Positions 34,409 through 45,207 of a DNA stretch of 64,000 bases are shown piece by piece. The translations under genes were made by a program, and so were the position numbers. The stretch's first letter is position 1; each line of letters opens with the position of its first letter. The stretch comes from Truepera radiovictrix DSM 17093. GTDB taxonomy: Bacteria > Deinococcota > Deinococci > Deinococcales > Trueperaceae. The stretch spans positions 873,001-937,000 of the forward strand of contig NC_014221.1 in the NCBI RefSeq assembly GCF_000092425.1, in the 5' to 3' direction. The notes below the pieces were generated by a model. That model was not told the DNA's origin. It saw only the letters and a list, made by a program, of their open reading frames with translations, and made no database searches.

Positions 34409-34748
34409 CTGGACACGATCCGTGTCGTGCCGCTCTGCACGCTCGAGGCAACGCGTGGGGACGTAGAGGCGTTTTTGCGCAGCCAACCCCTTGACCGCTT
34501 GACGGTAAGCCGCTGGGTGGATGCGCGTCTGCGCGCGCGACGCGCTGATGAGGCGGTTCGGTGAGCACGTGGAGACCACCTCTTGCACGTGTGTCCCGAC
34601 GTTTGCCGACGCCGACCTTGCGGCGACCCTCCTCCTTGCCGCCATTGACAACGCGCGACGTCCCCTCGACACGCTCGGCAAAACCCCTCTTCGCGCCGCG
34701 CAGGCGCTCGGCGTCGCCGCGAGCGATGCCGGGATAGGAGCCCCATGA
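34409..34748 (+). pseudogene. Possible decayed reading frame between the acetyltransferase and aldehyde dehydrogenase genes
   Basis: The 459 nt from 34286 to 34744 contain no intact recognisable gene. A protein-like frame runs 34409-34563 (VVPLCTLEATRGDVEAFLRS and onward) without a good start, and a second frame, open from ATG 34521 to TGA 34748 (75 codons, including ADADLAATLLLAAIDNARRP), continues after a shift of frame. The last TGA overlaps the aldehyde dehydrogenase ATG (ATGA). This looks like a frameshifted remnant or a small coupled gene starting at 34521. I do not recognise a family. Confidence 0.3.
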
Positions 34749-37183
34749 CGGTAGACAACCCCACCGTAAAGGATATCTTCGACACGATGGACTACGGCCC
34801 CGCCCCCGAGAGCGCCGCGAGCGCCGTCGCGTGGCTTGAGCGCCACGGGCGCACCTTCGACCTCTTTATCGGCGGCGCGTTCGTGAGGTCAGCCTCCGAA
34901 GAGCGCTTCGACGTCATCAACCCAGCGACCAGGGAGGTCTTGGCGAGGGTCTCGCAGGCGGGCGAACAGGACGTGGACGCGGCGGTCGCGGCGGCGCGCA
35001 AAGCCTTCGGGCCGTGGTCGGCGCTCTCTGGGCACGCGCGCGCCCGCTACCTCTACGCGCTCGCTCGGGGCGTGCAGCGGCACTCGAGGCTCTTTGCCGT
35101 CCTTGAAACCCTCGACAACGGTAAACCGATCCGCGAGACGCGCGACCTAGACCTCCCTCTCGTCGCCCGGCACTTCTACCACCACGCGGGTTGGGCGCAG
35201 CTTAGAGACACCGAGCTTGTGGGCTACGAGAGCGTCGGCGTGTGCGGCCAGATCATCCCCTGGAACTTCCCGCTGCTGATGCTCGCCTGGAAGGTCGCGC
35301 CAGCGCTCGCGATGGGCAACACCGTGGTGCTCAAACCCGCCGAATTCACTCCCTTGACCGCCCTGCTCTTCGCCGAACTCTGCCAGGAGGTCGGGCTGCC
35401 GCCGGGGGTCGTCAACATCGTCACCGGCGACGGGCGCACGGGCGAACTGCTCGTCGCCCACCCGGACGTCGACAAGCTCGCCTTTACGGGGTCGACCGAA
35501 GTCGGCAAGCTCATCCGCGAGAAGACGGCGGGGAGCGGTAAAAAGCTCTCCCTGGAGCTAGGCGGCAAGTCGCCCTTTATCGTCTTCGACGACGCCGACC
35601 TAGACAGCGCCGTCGAGGGGGTCGTCGACGCCATCTGGTTTAACCAGGGGCAGGTCTGCTGCGCGGGCTCGAGGCTGCTCGTTCAGGAGGGCGTGGCCGA
35701 GCGGATGACGCACAAGCTCCGCGAGCGCATGGAGCGGTTGCGCGTCGGCTCGCCGCTCGACAAAGCCGTGGACATGGGGGCCATCGTGGCGCCGGTGCAG
35801 CTCGAAAAGATCGCCCGCTTGGTCGAGCAGGGCAAGGCCGAGGGGGCGACCTGCTACCAACCCTCGTGGGCGGTACCCGAAGAGGGCCTCTTCTACCCCC
35901 CGACGCTCTTTACGAACGCCCACCCCGCCTCCACGGTCGCGCAGGTCGAGATCTTCGGCCCCGTGATCGCCAGCACCACCTTCCGCACCCCCGCCGAGGC
36001 GGTCGAGCTCGCCAACCACACCCGCTACGGGCTGGCCGCCTCGGTGTGGACGGAGAACGTCAACCTGGCCCTCGACGTCGCCCCCAAACTCAAAGCGGGG
36101 GTGGTGTGGATCAACTGCACGAACCTCTTCGACGCGGCCTCGGGCTTCGGCGGTTACAAGGAGTCGGGCTTCGGCCGCGAGGGGGGGCGCGAGGGGCTCT
36201 TCGAGTACCTGGTGCCGAGCTGGGAGAAGAGGCAGAAGTCAGAAGTCAGGAGCCAGAAGTCAGGAGGTAGGCGTCAAGCGACCTCGGAGGGTTCAGAGTC
36301 CACGGCAGATGAGACCCTGCCGAGCTTCGGGATGCCGCCCATCGACCGCACGCCGAAGCTCTACATCGGCGGCAAGCAGGTGCGGCCCGACTCGGGCTAC
36401 AGCCTCCCCGTCTTTGACGCCAAAGGCAACCTCGTCGGGGAGGTCGGCGAGGGCAACCGCAAGGACGTTCGCAACGCCGTCGAGGCCGCGCGCAAGGCGT
36501 CGGGTTGGACAAAGGCGACGGCGCACGCTAGGGCCCAGGTGCTCTACTACCTCGGCGAAAACCTCGCGGCGCGCGCCCCCGAGTTCGCGGCGCGGCTCTC
36601 GCAGCTCACCGGGGCCTCGAGGCGAGCGGCCGAAGCGGAGGTCGAGGCGGCTATCGAGCGCATCTTCTTCTACGCCGCTTACAGTGACAAGTACGACGGC
36701 GCCGTGCACGCGACCCCGGTGCGCAACGTCACCCTCGCCATGCTCGAGCCCCTGGGCGTCGTCGGGGTGGTCTGCCCGGACGAGGCGCCCTTGCTGAGCC
36801 TTCTGTCGCTCACGTTGCCCCTCATCGCCCTCGGCAACCGCGTGGTGGCCGTCCCGAGCGAGCGCTACCCGCTCCTAGCGACCGACCTCTACACGGTTCT
36901 GGATACCTCCGACGTGCCGGGCGGGGTGCTGAACCTCGTCACGGGGCCCCGTGACGCGCTCACGAAGACGCTAGCTGAGCACGACGAGGTGGACGCGCTT
37001 TGGTACGTCGGCACCGCCGAGGGGAGCGCGCTGGTCGAGCGGGCGTCGGTGGGCAACCTCAAAAGGACGTGGGTGAATGACGGCTACGCGCGCGACTGGT
37101 TCGACCCCGTGCAGGCCCAGGGGGGGGAGTATCTGCGGCGCGCGGTGCAGGTGAAGAATATCTGGGTGCCGTATGGGGAGTAA
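34745..37183 (+). CDS. Aldehyde dehydrogenase with a fused second, half-length ALDH domain
   Basis: 812 residues. Domain 1 (about 30-495) is a complete NAD(P)-dependent enzyme: IPWNFPLLMLAWK, FTGSTEVGKLI, catalytic glutamate in LELGGKSP (E271) and cysteine in GQVCCAGSR (C305). A linker (about 496-530) is encoded partly by heptamer repeats. Domain 2 (about 535-812) resembles the NAD-binding half only (YIGGKQVRPDSGYSLPV, MLEPLGVVGVVCPDEAP, VLNLVTG) and has no catalytic cysteine region. In other bacteria deoC is followed by two separate ALDH genes; here they appear joined. ATG preceded by ATAGGAG. Likely oxidises acetaldehyde from DeoC. Confidence 0.9.
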   Translation: MTVDNPTVKDIFDTMDYGPAPESAASAVAWLERHGRTFDLFIGGAFVRSASEERFDVINPATREVLARVSQAGEQDVDAAVAAARKAFGPWSALSGHARARYLYALARGVQRHSRLFAVLETLDNGKPIRETRDLDLPLVARHFYHHAGWAQLRDTELVGYESVGVCGQIIPWNFPLLMLAWKVAPALAMGNTVVLKPAEFTPLTALLFAELCQEVGLPPGVVNIVTGDGRTGELLVAHPDVDKLAFTGSTEVGKLIREKTAGSGKKLSLELGGKSPFIVFDDADLDSAVEGVVDAIWFNQGQVCCAGSRLLVQEGVAERMTHKLRERMERLRVGSPLDKAVDMGAIVAPVQLEKIARLVEQGKAEGATCYQPSWAVPEEGLFYPPTLFTNAHPASTVAQVEIFGPVIASTTFRTPAEAVELANHTRYGLAASVWTENVNLALDVAPKLKAGVVWINCTNLFDAASGFGGYKESGFGREGGREGLFEYLVPSWEKRQKSEVRSQKSGGRRQATSEGSESTADETLPSFGMPPIDRTPKLYIGGKQVRPDSGYSLPVFDAKGNLVGEVGEGNRKDVRNAVEAARKASGWTKATAHARAQVLYYLGENLAARAPEFAARLSQLTGASRRAAEAEVEAAIERIFFYAAYSDKYDGAVHATPVRNVTLAMLEPLGVVGVVCPDEAPLLSLLSLTLPLIALGNRVVAVPSERYPLLATDLYTVLDTSDVPGGVLNLVTGPRDALTKTLAEHDEVDALWYVGTAEGSALVERASVGNLKRTWVNDGYARDWFDPVQAQGGEYLRRAVQVKNIWVPYGE
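36233..36267 (+). repeat. Five tandem CAGRAGN heptamers inside the ALDH linker
   Basis: Units are CAGAAGT, CAGAAGT, CAGGAGC, CAGAAGT and CAGGAGG, read in frame as part of a Lys/Arg/Ser/Gln-rich linker. The same unit type forms the hairpin at 42343-42414. Base composition differs from the flanking GC-rich code. Confidence 0.8.
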
Positions 37184-39372: not shown

Positions 39373-40382
39373 TGCCGCGCGCGCCGCTGCGGATCGGTAT
39401 CCTGAGCCTCGCGCACGTGCACGCCGACGGGTACGCGCGGCTGCTGCTGGAGCGCCCCGACGTTCGCTTCGTCGGCGTTTCAGACGACGACCCACAGCGC
39501 GGGGCGCGGGCTGAACAGGCCTTCGGCGTGCGCTGGTTTGCGCGCCACGAGGACCTGCTCGCCGAAGGTCTCGACGGCGTCCTGATCTGCTCGGAAAACG
39601 CCCTGCACCGCGCGCACGTCGCGTTGGCCGCGGCGGCGGGCGCGCACGTGCTGTGCGAAAAACCCATCGCGACCACCCTGGAGGACGCCGAGGCGATGCG
39701 CGCGGCCTGCGCGCGCGCAGGGGTGCGCTTTATGACCGCTTTCCCCATGCGCTTCGACGCTTCGGTGCGCGCCGCCAAAGATCTCTTGGCGCGCGGCGAC
39801 CTCGGCGAGCTCTACGCGGTCAACGGGATCAACCATAGTGAGAACCCCAGAGGGCACCGCGCCTGGTTTGCGCAGCGCGACCTCGCCGGTGGCGGCGCCG
39901 TGATGGACCACACCGTTCACCTCGTCGACCTCCTGCGCTGGTATACGGGGAGCGAGGTGCGCGAGGTCTACGCGGAGGTCGCCAACCCCTTCGACCCCGA
40001 GGTGGACGTGGACACCGCCGGGATCGTCACGCTGACCTTCGGCAGCGGGCTTTTTGCCGCCGTAGACTGCTCTTGGAGCCGCCCCGCCGGGATCTATCCG
40101 CGCTGGGGGCACCTCAAGATGGAGCTCGTCGGCGCGCGCGGCGTGGTTTCAGTCGACGCGTTCGGGCAGTACGCCACCCGCTTTGGCGGCACGGCCAGCC
40201 GTCCGGTGACGTGGCACAACTGGGGGAGCGACCCGAACCGCGCGATGTTGGCGGCGTTTTTAGAGAGCGTCCGCGAGGCTCAAGAGCCGCCGGTGACGTG
40301 GCGAGACGGGTACGAAGCGCTCAAGGTGGCGCTGGCGTGTTACGCGTCGGCGGCGCGGGCGCAGCCCGTAGCCCTTGGGTAG
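39372..40382 (+). CDS. Gfo/Idh/MocA family oxidoreductase
   Basis: 336 residues from the ATG overlapping the previous stop (TGATG); a GTG codon just before is also in frame. The nucleotide-binding N-terminus reads RIGILSLAHVHADGYARLL, lacking the usual GxGxxG, then LICSENALHRAHV and VLCEKPIATTLEDAE. The C-terminal domain has VMDHTVHLVDLLRWY. SLAHVHA marks a subfamily found in sugar catabolic clusters. Substrate unknown; the minus-strand sugar ABC importer is convergent with it. Confidence 0.86.
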   Translation: MPRAPLRIGILSLAHVHADGYARLLLERPDVRFVGVSDDDPQRGARAEQAFGVRWFARHEDLLAEGLDGVLICSENALHRAHVALAAAAGAHVLCEKPIATTLEDAEAMRAACARAGVRFMTAFPMRFDASVRAAKDLLARGDLGELYAVNGINHSENPRGHRAWFAQRDLAGGGAVMDHTVHLVDLLRWYTGSEVREVYAEVANPFDPEVDVDTAGIVTLTFGSGLFAAVDCSWSRPAGIYPRWGHLKMELVGARGVVSVDAFGQYATRFGGTASRPVTWHNWGSDPNRAMLAAFLESVREAQEPPVTWRDGYEALKVALACYASAARAQPVALG

Positions 40383-40583
40383 CTCGAGCGGCGGCCTTCG
40401 CGCCTCGTAGGAGCGGCTGGGGGGCACAACCGCTTCACGACTGGCTGCCGTTACCCTCTCGGGACATGCGTGCTCGACGGAAAACGCGCGCGTCGGGGCG
40501 GTGTGTGTACGGGCACGCACATCTGCACATCTGGCGTCTGGGGTGGGCTCGAGCGGCCGCCGCGTGGGGCCGGTTCGGGAGGC

Positions 40584-41408
40584 TCACTTCACCGACCCCG
40601 CCGTCAACCCTCGGATGAGCTGCCTGGAAAAGAGCACGTAGAGGACGATCACCGGCACCATCGCCAGCGTCAGGGCGGCGAGCACCGCGTTCCAGTCATT
40701 GATGTACTGGCCCAAGAAGACCTGCGCGCCCAGGATGACCGTCTTGGTGCGCTCGGCGGGCGCCAAAATGAGCGGGAACCAGAGGTCGTTCCAGATGGGG
40801 ATCATGTTAAAGACCGCCACCGTGCCCAGCGCGGGGCGCACGAGCGGCAGCACGAGGGCGTAGATGCGGTACTCGCTGGCGCCGTCGATGCGGGCGGCGT
40901 CCTTGAGGTCCTTGGGGACCTGGCGCATGAACTGCGTCAGGATAAAGACCGCCAGTGGAATCCCCGCCGCCGCGTAGACCAGGATGAGCGCTAGGAGCGT
41001 GTTGGTGAGCCCGAGACGCACCATCATCTGCAGCAGGCTGACTGTGCCTAAGCGGATGGGCACCATGATGCCCAGGGCGAGGTAGAGCCCCAGGAGGGTG
41101 TTGCCGGGGAAGGGGTACTCGGCGAGCGCAAAGGCGGCCATCGAACTTACCCAGAGGATGAGGGCGAGCGAGGCGAGTGTGACGACGAGGCTGTTGCGGA
41201 AGTACAGGGGGAAGTCCGCCCCGCCGAGCACCGTCCGGTAGCCCGCGAGGTCCCAGGTTTCGGGTGTCGGCGGCGCGTAGGGGGTGCGGAAGATGGCCAA
41301 GCGTCCCTTGAACGAGTTGACGATCACGAGCACTACGGGGAAGAGCGCCAGCGCGGTGTAGAAGAGCAGCACCGTGTGCGCGGCCAGGGTCGCGGCGGGG
41401 CGCTTCAC
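40584..41408 (-). CDS. Carbohydrate ABC transporter permease, MalG-like
   Basis: 274 residues, six membrane segments. The EAA loop near the end of the conserved region is KDLKDAARIDGASEYRIYALVLPLVRPA. It pairs with the upstream MalF-like permease. GTG start overlaps that gene's stop (GTGA). No ATPase follows: after the stop is a 200-nt convergent gap (40383-40583) with no gene and no T-rich terminator. A shared MsmX/UgpC-like ATPase encoded elsewhere is expected. Confidence 0.92.
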   Translation of the reverse strand: MKRPAATLAAHTVLLFYTALALFPVVLVIVNSFKGRLAIFRTPYAPPTPETWDLAGYRTVLGGADFPLYFRNSLVVTLASLALILWVSSMAAFALAEYPFPGNTLLGLYLALGIMVPIRLGTVSLLQMMVRLGLTNTLLALILVYAAAGIPLAVFILTQFMRQVPKDLKDAARIDGASEYRIYALVLPLVRPALGTVAVFNMIPIWNDLWFPLILAPAERTKTVILGAQVFLGQYINDWNAVLAALTLAMVPVIVLYVLFSRQLIRGLTAGSVK

Positions 41409-42334
41409 AGCTCGATCCGCTGCAGGCGGCGTTGGTAGCCGAAGAGGTACACGAGCACGCCCGAGAGGATGACCAGCAGCATCACCCCCGCGATCGTAGC
41501 GCCCATCGTGGGGTTGCCGGGTTGGAGCTGAAAGCCGAAAAAGGTGCGGAAGAAGAGGGTGCCCATGATGTCGGTCGAGAAGTTGGGGCCGGCGATGGCG
41601 CGCTGGGTGGTGTAGATGAGGTCGAAGGCGTTGAAGTTGCCCACGAAGGTGAGCACCGAGACGATGCCCACGGTGGGCAGGATGAGCGGGAACTGGACGC
41701 GCCAGAACACCCCCCAGGCGGTCGCGCCGTCGACCCTAGCGGCCTCTAAAAGTTCATCGGGGATGCCGACGAGGGCCGCGAGAAAGAGCATCATCGGGAT
41801 GCCGACGTTTTGCCAGACCGACACCAGCGACAACGTCACGAGCGCCGTCGACTCCTGACCGAGCCACGGTTGGTTGAGGTGCTCGAGGCCGAAAAGGCCC
41901 AAAACGTCGCCGGAGATGCCCCACAAGGGGCTTAAGATAAGGCGCCAGATAAAGCCGATGAGGACGACCGAGAGCACCGTGGGGGTAAAGATCAGCGTGC
42001 GGTAGACCGCGCGGCCGCGCACCAGCTTCGACGAGAGCAGAACCGCTAGAGAGAGCCCCACGGGGTTTTGCACGAGCATGTGGATGGCGAAAAAGAGGAC
42101 GTTGTTGGAAAGCGCGTTCAGAAGTTGCGGCGCCCACTGCGGGTGCGAGAGGAGCGTGCGGTAGTTCTGCAACCCGACGAAAGCCAGCCCCCGAGCGCCC
42201 CCCTCCTCGACTGTCGGCGCGAAGAGGCTGAGCCGTAGGGAGTCCAGCAGCGGATAGATCATAAAGGCCGTGTAGAGCAGCACGGCGGGGGCCAAGAAGA
42301 CGAGGATGTGGACGGGGAAGGGTCTGCGGCGCAT
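41405..42334 (-). CDS. Carbohydrate ABC transporter permease, MalF-like
   Basis: 309 residues, six membrane segments with LVFLAPAVLLYTAFMIYPLLDSLRLS at the start and EAA loop DELLEAARVDGATAWGVFWRVQFPLILP. The ATG has no Shine-Dalgarno site in front of it; the sequence there is the arm of the heptamer hairpin at 42343-42414. Translation may be coupled to, or limited by, that structure. Confidence 0.92.
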   Translation of the reverse strand: MRRRPFPVHILVFLAPAVLLYTAFMIYPLLDSLRLSLFAPTVEEGGARGLAFVGLQNYRTLLSHPQWAPQLLNALSNNVLFFAIHMLVQNPVGLSLAVLLSSKLVRGRAVYRTLIFTPTVLSVVLIGFIWRLILSPLWGISGDVLGLFGLEHLNQPWLGQESTALVTLSLVSVWQNVGIPMMLFLAALVGIPDELLEAARVDGATAWGVFWRVQFPLILPTVGIVSVLTFVGNFNAFDLIYTTQRAIAGPNFSTDIMGTLFFRTFFGFQLQPGNPTMGATIAGVMLLVILSGVLVYLFGYQRRLQRIEL

Positions 42335-42342
42335 GGGGTAAG

Positions 42343-42414
42343 CAGAAGTCAGTAGCCAGTAGTCAGAAGTCAGTAGGGTTTATTTTGACTTCTGACTACT
42401 GAATGCTGGCTACT
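42343..42414 (-). repeat. Heptamer-repeat hairpin between binding-protein and permease genes
   Basis: On the plus strand the left arm is five heptamers (CAGAAGT, CAGTAGC, CAGTAGT, CAGAAGT, CAGTAGG; 42343-42377). The right arm contains TGACTTCTGACTACT (42386-42400), which pairs perfectly over 15 bp with 42358-42372, and GGCTACT (42408-42414), which pairs with 42351-42357 after a 7-nt bulge. It starts 3 nt beyond the binding-protein stop codon. In other sugar operons such structures protect the binding-protein mRNA and lower permease expression. Confidence 0.8.
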
Positions 42415-42417
42415 AGT

Positions 42418-43668
42418 CTACTCTCCCTGCTGCGGCTCGTACCAAGCCTCGAGCCCCGCCTGCACCGTCTGCGCCGCCTCTTGCGGGGTGATCTCGCCGT
42501 TTAACAGCCGCGCGGAGACGTTCCAGAGCTGGTTCTCGTTGTTCGGCTCGCCGCGCGAGAGGATCTGGTAGCTCGAGCGGATGGTCGATGCGCACTCGCC
42601 GCGCCAGCTCACGAACTCTTGGGCCAAGGGGTCTTGAAGCGTCACCTCGTGGTTCGAGAGCGGGAAAAAGCCGGGGAGCGCGTTTGCGTAGAGCTCGGCA
42701 AATTCGGGCGTGGTCATCCACTCCAAAAAGAGGCGCGCGGCCTCCTGATTGGGGCTAGCGGCGTTTAGGCCCATGCCGATGTCCGTGTGGTCGCTGATAA
42801 AGCAGTCCTCTTGGCCTTCGGGCGGGGGCGGGCGAAAGGCGCCCATGGGGAAGGGGGCCTGCTGGTTGAAGACCGAGATGTCCCACGAGCCCGCCGGGTA
42901 GACCGCGCCCATCCCGAGGGTAAAGGCGGCCTGCGCGTCGGGGTAGGTGGTCGCCTGGTAGCCGTTCATCAGAAAGGGCCGCCACGCGGCGAGCGCTTCA
43001 AACGCCGCCAAAAAGCCGCCCTCGTCGTAGCCGATGGTGCCGTCGATGAGGCCCCGCCGCCCCTCTTCGCCGCGCCAGTAGTTCGGACCGATGTTCTGGT
43101 AGCCCATGGTGGCCGCTTCCCACTGGTCGGCGGTGCCCATGATGAGGGGTTCGTAGGCGCCGCTCTCGCGAACCGTCTGCAGCAGGCTCAGGAACTCCTC
43201 GTAAGTCTGCGGCTCAGAAAGGCCTAACTCGGCGAAGATGTCCTGGTTGTAGATAAAACCGTGGATGACCGAAGCCATGGGGACGCAGAAGACGTCGGAG
43301 CCGTCGTCGGTGATCCAGGCGCTCTTGGCGACGTCCGAAAAGTTCTCCATACCGGGGAGGTCGTTTAAGGGGGCGAGGTGCCCCCTCTGAAAGAGGTCCA
43401 AGGAGACGTCGAAGGGGCGGCAGGTGATGAGGTCGCCCGCGCTGCCCGCCTCGAGCTTGGAGTTAAGCACCGCGTTGTACTCCGCCGGAGCCGACGGCGC
43501 GAAGGTCACCTGGATGTCTGGGTAGCGCGCGTTAAAGGCGGGGATGATGGTCTCTTGCCAGACCGTGAGGTCGTCGTTACGCCAGCTCTCGATGGTGAGG
43601 CTTCCGCTCTGAGCGAGCGCGGCGCCGAGCAGGGTAGAGCAGAGGACGAGGCCGAGGCGAAGCTTCAT
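42418..43668 (-). CDS. Sugar ABC transporter substrate-binding protein
   Basis: 416 residues. Signal peptide MKLRLGLVLCSTLLGAALA then QSG. The mature protein has the family-1 pattern: LTIESWRNDDLTVWQETIIPAFNARYPDIQ, GDLITCRPFDVSLDLFQRG, and WMTTPEFAELYANALPGFFP. ATG preceded by GGAGGG. Promoter box TAGAGT (complement of 43701-43706). The two permeases follow after the hairpin. Ligand unknown; neighbouring Gfo/Idh/MocA enzymes suggest a cyclitol or modified sugar. Confidence 0.92.
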   Translation of the reverse strand: MKLRLGLVLCSTLLGAALAQSGSLTIESWRNDDLTVWQETIIPAFNARYPDIQVTFAPSAPAEYNAVLNSKLEAGSAGDLITCRPFDVSLDLFQRGHLAPLNDLPGMENFSDVAKSAWITDDGSDVFCVPMASVIHGFIYNQDIFAELGLSEPQTYEEFLSLLQTVRESGAYEPLIMGTADQWEAATMGYQNIGPNYWRGEEGRRGLIDGTIGYDEGGFLAAFEALAAWRPFLMNGYQATTYPDAQAAFTLGMGAVYPAGSWDISVFNQQAPFPMGAFRPPPPEGQEDCFISDHTDIGMGLNAASPNQEAARLFLEWMTTPEFAELYANALPGFFPLSNHEVTLQDPLAQEFVSWRGECASTIRSSYQILSRGEPNNENQLWNVSARLLNGEITPQEAAQTVQAGLEAWYEPQQGE

Positions 43669-43700
43669 AGACCCTCCTATAGATCTGTGAGCTGGCCTCT

Positions 43701-43760
43701 ACTCTACGCTTTTGCCCGCGCGCTCGCTAGATGTGGCTCTGTAGCGATGGCCCTGTAGCG
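43701..43760 (-). promoter_or_regulatory. Promoter with tandem 14-bp repeats upstream of the sugar ABC operon
   Basis: TAGAGT on the minus strand (43701-43706) serves as -10. Farther upstream, two adjacent 14-bp direct repeats match at 12 of 14 positions (plus strand GTGGCTCTGTAGCG at 43733-43746 and ATGGCCCTGTAGCG at 43747-43760). They overlap or flank the -35 zone, where no good -35 hexamer is seen, as for an activator site. No regulator gene is adjacent. Confidence 0.4.
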
Positions 43761-43839
43761 CGCCGAAGTGGGGTGTCGGGGCAGCTTGAGCGGTACCCAG
43801 GTTCGCCTCGAGCGCCCCGCGACACCCTAGCGAGCCCCG

Positions 43840-45207
43840 TTACAAAAGAGCCGCGACCCTCTCGGCGGCCGCCTCGCCAGTGCGCACCGCCCCCTCGAAA
43901 AAGCCGGGCCAGCGCTCGGCCACCTCCGTACCCGCCCAGTGGATGCTGCCGACGGGGGCGGCGAGCGCTTCGCCGAAAGACGTCCACACGCCGGGCGGCA
44001 TAAAGGCGGTGTAGCCCCCGCCGGTCCACGGGTCGCTCGTCCAGTCGGCTTCGTCGTAGGCGATGGGGGAGAGGGCCTCATCGCCGAAATAGCGGGCGAG
44101 GTCGGCGAGGATGGCGGCGCGGCGGTCGCTCTCGTTGAGCTGCCGCCACGCGTGGTAGCGGTGGCCGTAGACGAACGCCGCGATGACCCCGACGTCGCCT
44201 GCAAGCTCGGAGCTGTCGGCGCACAGCTCGACCCAGCCGCTATTGCCGATGCCGGTCCCGACAAGCCCTCGGTCGCGCCAGAAGGGGCGGTCGTAGGCGA
44301 CCAGCAGTTTGGCGCAGGTGCCCATCGGCATGCGCTGGGTGAGCTGGCTGCGAAGCGGCGGCAGCGGCGGGTCGTAGGCGATCCGGCCGGCCAGGTGCGG
44401 GGGCATGGCGACGATGGCGAACCGTGCGGCGTAGCGGCCGCGGGGCGTCTCGAGCGTAACGCCCGCGCCGTCTTGGCGCGCGCGCAAGACCGGTTCGCCC
44501 GTACGGACGCGTTCGGCAAACGCTGCGGCGATCTTCGCGGGGAGCTGCCCCGCTCCGCCGCGCAGGAGCTCGGCTTCCGGGTACTCGGCTTGCGAGGCCA
44601 CGCGGTGGCCCCAGAGGACGTGGAGCAGCGACACCTGCTCCGGTTCGGCGCACCCCGTGCCGACCGCTCGAGCCATGTAGGAAAAGTACCAGTTGCCGAA
44701 CGCCGTGCGGGTGTTTTCACCGATCCACTGCGCGAAGGTCACGGCGTCGAGCTTGCGGGTGAGGTCGTTCGAGCGCGGATGCTCCGGTTCCAGACGCGCC
44801 GCTAGGGCGTCGAAGCGGGCCCACGCGTCGATCGCGTCGCTCCAATCCCCTTCCGGAACGCCCGGGGGGAGCCCCTCGAAAAACCCCTGAAAAAACCCCT
44901 CGAACTCGTAGCGTTGGTCGCCGAAGATGAGCACCTTGCGCCCCTGCGACGGTGAGGGGAAGCGCTCGACACCGTACTCGCTTAAAAGCGCACAGAAGCG
45001 CTCTTGGGTGGGGCCGACCCACTGCCCCCCCCAGTCGACCCACCCCCCCGAGGGCAGCGCGCGGCCGTACATCCGGCCGCCTATGCGGTCTCGCGCCTCG
45101 AGCACCAGCACGGAGGCGCCGGCGCGGTGCAGGTTGCGAGCGGCGACGAGGCCGGCGAGTCCGGCGCCGACGACGATGCAGTCGTATGTCGGTGTGTCTG
45201 TGGGCAA
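43840..45207 (-). CDS. Flavin monoamine oxidase family protein
   Basis: About 455 residues from a TTG at 45207. FAD-binding CIVVGAGLAGLVAARNLHRAG and ARDRIGGRM near the N-terminus; GSIHWAGTEVAERWPGFFEGAVRTGEAAA at the C-terminus closes the FAD site, as in MAO and putrescine oxidase. It oxidises an amine with production of hydrogen peroxide; substrate unknown. AAAGGAG is 8 nt before this TTG and only 2 nt before another in-frame TTG at 45213, so 45207 is preferred. TAGGCT (complement of 45265-45270) may be its -10. The cysteine usually carrying covalent FAD in animal MAO is not evident. Confidence 0.88.
   Translation of the reverse strand: MPTDTPTYDCIVVGAGLAGLVAARNLHRAGASVLVLEARDRIGGRMYGRALPSGGWVDWGGQWVGPTQERFCALLSEYGVERFPSPSQGRKVLIFGDQRYEFEGFFQGFFEGLPPGVPEGDWSDAIDAWARFDALAARLEPEHPRSNDLTRKLDAVTFAQWIGENTRTAFGNWYFSYMARAVGTGCAEPEQVSLLHVLWGHRVASQAEYPEAELLRGGAGQLPAKIAAAFAERVRTGEPVLRARQDGAGVTLETPRGRYAARFAIVAMPPHLAGRIAYDPPLPPLRSQLTQRMPMGTCAKLLVAYDRPFWRDRGLVGTGIGNSGWVELCADSSELAGDVGVIAAFVYGHRYHAWRQLNESDRRAAILADLARYFGDEALSPIAYDEADWTSDPWTGGGYTAFMPPGVWTSFGEALAAPVGSIHWAGTEVAERWPGFFEGAVRTGEAAAERVAALL

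Follow-up and report, generated by a model that had tools for sequence, protein, structure and literature searches.

Introduction

In Escherichia coli a dispersed extragenic repeat (REP) makes up the structure between malE and malF. This stem stabilises malE: it keeps 3'-to-5' exonucleases off the malE mRNA once the transcript has been cleaved downstream, with half-lives of 3.5 against 1 min (PMC5927463); differential decay of the malE-malF mRNA is also the subject of a 1987 Cell paper cited there (ref. 8 in PMC5927463). Repeats of another kind are the intergenic arrays of the heptamer GGGAATC in Xanthomonas, where 70-75 inverted convergent pairs per genome are capable of forming stem-loops, and where the arrays lie on average 28 nt from the upstream gene, nearer than to the downstream one, and are under-represented between divergent genes; no regulatory role was found for them, their function is given as unknown, and replacement of an older hairpin is not described (PMC4692102). 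A further heptamer, TAACTGA, forms intergenic arrays in marine Beggiatoaceae, cyanobacteria and Bacteroidetes, almost all of them direct repeats (169 sets and one indirect); the gaps that hold them seldom have Shine-Dalgarno (SD) sites, and these repeats are predicted to be unstructured and were proposed to act near start codons (PMC4679880).

Here we describe a junction in Truepera radiovictrix that has features of all three systems. It shares with the malE-malF REP its location between a binding-protein gene and a malF-type gene, a strong RNA stem that needs no U-tract and an expected excess of binding protein, but the REP is a palindrome, whereas the present element is an inverted tandem heptamer with a predicted fold, and it belongs to another phylum. 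Similar to the Xanthomonas repeats it consists of tandem 7-nt units that are dispersed genome-wide, mostly intergenic, closer to the upstream gene, present in some inverted pairs and few between divergent genes; however, the unit is CAGNAGY rather than GGGAATC/GGGANTN and has none of the quadruplex-capable G-tracts of the latter. With TAACTGA it has in common intergenic heptamer arrays and a patchy occurrence over distant phyla, the difference being that those repeats are almost all direct and are predicted to be unstructured. Our literature search returned nothing relevant on this heptamer sequence and no paper on repeats in Truepera.

Results

The window, by which we mean the whole stretch of 64,000 nt that was analysed, lies in a genome that is a single contig of 3,260,398 bp. 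On its minus strand a solute-binding protein gene (42418-43668; SBP_bac_1/SBP_bac_8 by Pfam) is followed by a malF-type permease gene (41405-42334) and a malG-type permease gene (40584-41408), both BPD_transp_1 by Pfam and overlapping each other by 4 nt. Between the first two genes is a gap of 83 nt (42335-42417, minus strand) that is made nearly throughout of inverted CAGNAGY heptamers, five on the plus strand and at least three on the minus strand, and that is predicted to form an RNA hairpin in the sense strand. The foldback begins 3 nt past the TAG stop of the binding-protein gene, exactly where the original prediction had placed it, and its final heptamer-like unit stops a few nucleotides short of the malF ATG. 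No SD site was found ahead of this ATG (CTGCTTACCCCATG), which agrees with the earlier proposal that the array replaces the site, but the point is a weak one: an SD-like motif precedes just 17 of the 53 mechanically called genes of the window, so that its absence at malF is not unusual, although malF of the congener (G001) is preceded by AAGGA.

In the mRNA the 5' arm (42386-42414) has the CAGTAGY orientation on the minus strand, and the 3' arm is formed by five tandem CAGNAGY units read on the plus strand (42343-42377), the final one being CAGTAGG. The segments CAGTAGTCAGAAGTCA (42357-42372) and TGACTTCTGACTACTG (42386-42401) are perfectly complementary over 16 bp. RNAfold arranges the stem as 14 + 9 bp around a 7-nt bulge, which is one additional heptamer of degenerate sequence in the 5' arm (CAGCATT, minus strand, about 42400-42406), with a 13-nt hairpin loop (42373-42385, minus strand) and an outer 7-bp helix that extends into the stop codon of the binding-protein gene. 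As RNA the gap has a minimum free energy of -40.8 kcal/mol, compared with -19.7 +/- 3.0 for shuffled sequences (z = -7.07; 0 of 200 equally stable), and among the 15 same-strand gaps of 55-300 nt between mechanically called genes in the window this junction is the only one with z < -3. The heptamer foldback had thus been described correctly to within a base or two, bulge included, its perfect part being one base pair longer than the 15 bp first given.

The stem is followed by GACTTCTGCTTACC, with no T-run, and a terminator scan did not detect the hairpin. A strong stem thus separates the binding-protein stop from the permease start, as at malE-malF, and it is not the GC-rich stem with an immediate U-tract that defines an intrinsic terminator. 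Rfam covariance models gave no match in 40300-44000 up to E = 1, and a known RNA family was accordingly discarded as the identity of the element. When arm matching was compared with that of arms swapped among the foldbacks of this genome, the focal pair ranked 3 of 20 and the mean rank was 0.53, so that arm-to-arm covariation as a sign of selected pairing was not found in this genome; the corresponding mean rank of 0.32 in other phyla is confounded by genome-specific repeat variants. As the arms are not clearly better matched than swapped ones, their pairing could simply follow from inverted copies of a single repeat without selection.

The array was expected to be built from a dispersed repeat, and this expectation was confirmed. 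The window contains 10 heptamer pairs where 1.2 would be expected, a count reached in 0 of 100 shuffles, and a 21-mer pattern of three units has 163 matches genome-wide with up to three mismatches and 70 with at most one, compared with 5 and 0, respectively, for the reversed control. We studied 29 arrays in the stretches around them, using gene calls from a codon-position GC rule, which makes individual array-to-gene distances approximate; 27 lie outside called genes. Foldbacks make up 11 of the 29, all with a folding energy of -32 kcal/mol or below; 10 of them are intergenic between same-strand genes, where they often take up the whole gap or run into the stop codon upstream. Their neighbours include accB-accC (biotin carrier and biotin carboxylase), ybaB-recR, a zinc peptidase gene with rsmB, and a DAHP synthase gene with a 4Fe-4S protein gene, and since these gene pairs are unrelated the repeat is not specific to transporters. 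A second array in the window (36226-36274, plus strand) is tandem only and lies in the gene of a two-domain aldehyde dehydrogenase (ORF 34745-37183), where it codes for a portion of the linker between the domains (KRQKSEVRSQKSGGRRQ); the linker of relatives is unrelated. Another heptamer, GCMATGA, is also present in this genome as short tandem copies.

The three-unit pattern (at most one mismatch) has no match in 37 of 40 relatives, among them the congener. Another member of the family (G010) has 14 such matches, in arrays of a single orientation and with no foldbacks; several of these arrays lie just ahead of a gene start and not past a stop. At array sites with matchable flanks the congener has 11, 56 and 125 bp where T. 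radiovictrix has 87, 151 and 182 bp, and the accB-accC gap, which holds a CAGNAGY foldback in this species, is 20-25 bp in four relatives. These comparisons indicate that the CAGNAGY repeat is young in this species. In the congener the accB-accC gap is likewise occupied by a foldback, in this case of inverted GCMATGA units, which differ in sequence from CAGNAGY. We also noted a segment of about 7.7 kb (L068:661-8414, genome about 1250160-1257913) that corresponds to about 0.5 kb in the congener and contains three heptamer arrays together with genes that have matches in other members of the family, and it resembles an island here or a loss in the congener. A relative of the same order (G033) has a different tandem heptamer, CGGATAACGGATAACGGATAACGG, just downstream of its malF-type gene.

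A RAYT-like transposase was considered as the mobiliser of the repeat, since REP elements are short palindromes that flank a dedicated Y1_Tnp gene of this type. The genome has 11 Y1_Tnp (IS200-like) genes, at 600741, 1012653, 1283072 and 8 other places, which fall into one set of 7 and one of 3 with the same score in each, plus a single gene, and the congener has none. No heptamers were found within 1.5 kb of three copies examined, and at another copy (766862) an array lies 1.3 kb away. Across 41 genomes Y1_Tnp is present in 4 of 4 with any heptamer match and in 7 of 37 with none (Fisher p = 0.003), the same test giving p = 0.07 when only genomes with at least 10 matches are counted. Since the copies examined have no heptamers beside them and many Y1_Tnp carriers have none at all, we did not adopt the transposase as mobiliser, and the link stands as a weak association.

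The orthologous binding-protein/malF junction could be resolved in 11 relatives (two further loci, L039 and L044, were left out as unresolvable). In 10 of the 11 a strong hairpin lies shortly past the binding-protein stop, and except in close species pairs the sequences of these hairpins are unrelated both to one another and to the heptamer. In the relatives the first 80 nt of the junction have a median z of -3.06. For the final 80 nt of the binding-protein gene z is near zero (paired Wilcoxon p = 0.01, own genome excluded), as it is for other same-strand gaps of our window (p = 0.001). A T-run follows the stem in at least two relatives (G001 and G028), whose hairpins may therefore be leaky terminators, and is absent in several others, as it is in T. 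radiovictrix. That hairpins of unrelated sequence recur in 10 of 11 relatives suggests that the structure has been kept while the sequence was replaced, and the simplest account would be that this junction needs a hairpin, supplied here by the heptamer foldback.

Foldbacks of this type also occur far outside the genus. The exact CAGTAGY foldback pattern picks out 101 stretches in the GTDB genome collection and, in addition, 11 viral contigs; the record titles of the former name members of Planctomycetota, Chloroflexi, Acidobacteria, Verrucomicrobia, Bacteroidetes, Actinomycetota and others, a list that is a sample rather than a census, because the pattern was taken from this genome and requires T in the first unit. 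In 18 of 19 of these genomes that we examined the tandem pattern has at least 8 matches, and up to 496, with few or none for the control in most; Chryseolinea serpens (G055) is one example of a genome rich in CAGTAGY foldbacks. The repeats of G048, G050, G051, G054, G056 and G059 are less specific, as their control counts are appreciable. Outside called genes lie 99 of 102 foldbacks, compared with 18% of random segments. Where genes were called on both sides, 63 of 89 foldbacks are between same-strand, 20 between convergent and 6 between divergent genes, the last being under-represented (6/89 vs 52/293, p = 0.01). The median distance to the upstream stop is 14 nt and that to the downstream start 33 nt; in the same-strand gaps the upstream stop is the nearer of the two in 49 of 63 cases (p = 3.5e-6) and lies within 33 nt in 57 of 63 (49% expected, p = 2e-12), although these counts are not fully independent, since several foldbacks stem from the same genomes.

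Discussion

Taken together, the comparisons presented here incline us to the view that at this junction a foldback of a dispersed heptamer has replaced an older 3' hairpin and protects the binding-protein mRNA in the manner of the malE-malF REP. In the polycistronic mRNA a long stem would form right after the stop codon of the binding-protein gene. Because this stem has no U-tract, efficient termination of transcription would not be expected; instead it would block 3'-to-5' exonucleases once the permease part of the message has been cleaved, and the binding-protein mRNA would consequently outlive that of the permeases. As the hairpin sits in the same place as that of malE-malF and has a comparable structure, likewise with no U-tract, we infer the same effect, and the repeat has probably assumed the task, carried out in E. 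coli by another repeat, of protecting the upstream message. If the hairpin forms in the cell it may thus protect this message and give rise to an excess of binding protein over permease.

The role in expression suggested by the original prediction is supported in part: the position fits differential expression, a hairpin is kept in relatives, and E. coli malE-malF is a junction of the same type. What did not survive is the idea of the repeat as a dedicated stoichiometry device, since the same foldbacks occur at accB-accC, ybaB-recR and the zinc-peptidase gene/rsmB pair. That they also separate genes for which unequal dosage is not known to be required counts against the protection reading itself; control of stoichiometry by the hairpin, a reasonable idea for this junction, would, if it is exerted, be a property of the junction rather than of the repeat.

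Three other explanations bear on the same observations. The heptamers could be repeat DNA of a selfish or mutational kind that has spread by some process and persists just after stop codons, where it does least harm, with the fold as a by-product and no effect on expression. This would agree with their species-specific spread (70 matches here and 14 in one member of the family, as against none in the congener), with array sites at which the congener has a shorter gap or an empty one (e.g. 11 bp against 87 and 56 against 151), with an accB-accC gap of only 20-25 bp in four relatives, and with the unrelated neighbour genes, the arms that show no special matching and the one array in a coding linker. 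However, spread alone does not explain a hairpin of unrelated sequence at this junction in 10 of 11 relatives, and in several phyla the foldbacks sit close to the upstream stop rather than anywhere in the gap, and we consider this explanation unlikely.

The remaining two retain an effect on expression and move it to another step. A leaky terminator, at which polymerase is partly halted so that less permease message is made, would have the identical outcome of less permease, and the stems followed by a T-run in G001 and G028 could be read in this way; yet in T. radiovictrix the stem is followed by GACTTCTGCTTACC, the terminator scan was negative, and several relatives lack the T-run too, which makes such a function here quite improbable. 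Alternatively, the stem may act on translation, restricting ribosome access beside the malF start or enforcing coupling, similar to what has been proposed for the Beggiatoaceae TAACTGA heptamers. The array does end a few nucleotides before the malF ATG, with no SD site, and SD sites are also rare in the repeat-bearing gaps of Beggiatoaceae (PMC4679880), but SD-like sites are uncommon in our window in any case (17/53) and in the cross-phylum set it is mostly the upstream stop, not the downstream start, that lies nearer to the foldback (49/63, p = 3.5e-6), so that we give this possibility little credence.

Inverted heptamer pairs after genes are already known from Xanthomonas (PMC4692102), as are patchy cross-phylum heptamers from Beggiatoaceae and others (PMC4679880). 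As far as the searched literature shows, the CAGNAGY heptamer, the post-stop foldback form in several phyla and the replacement of an older binding-protein/permease hairpin are new. Extending the argument beyond Truepera, we can tentatively suggest, as a possibility still on the doubtful side, that heptamer foldbacks are interchangeable gene-end elements in several phyla, with different heptamers independently colonising the same junctions and supplying a 3' hairpin whose structure is conserved as its sequence is replaced. With Term-seq or RNA-seq data this gene-end hypothesis can be tested directly on the CAGTAGY foldbacks found just after stops across phyla. Heptamer repeats in bacteria have long been noted with no agreed function, and the comparison of orthologs at this locus suggests one: a hairpin built from the repeat occupies the spot of the unrelated hairpins of relatives, at the type of junction where differential mRNA decay is best understood.
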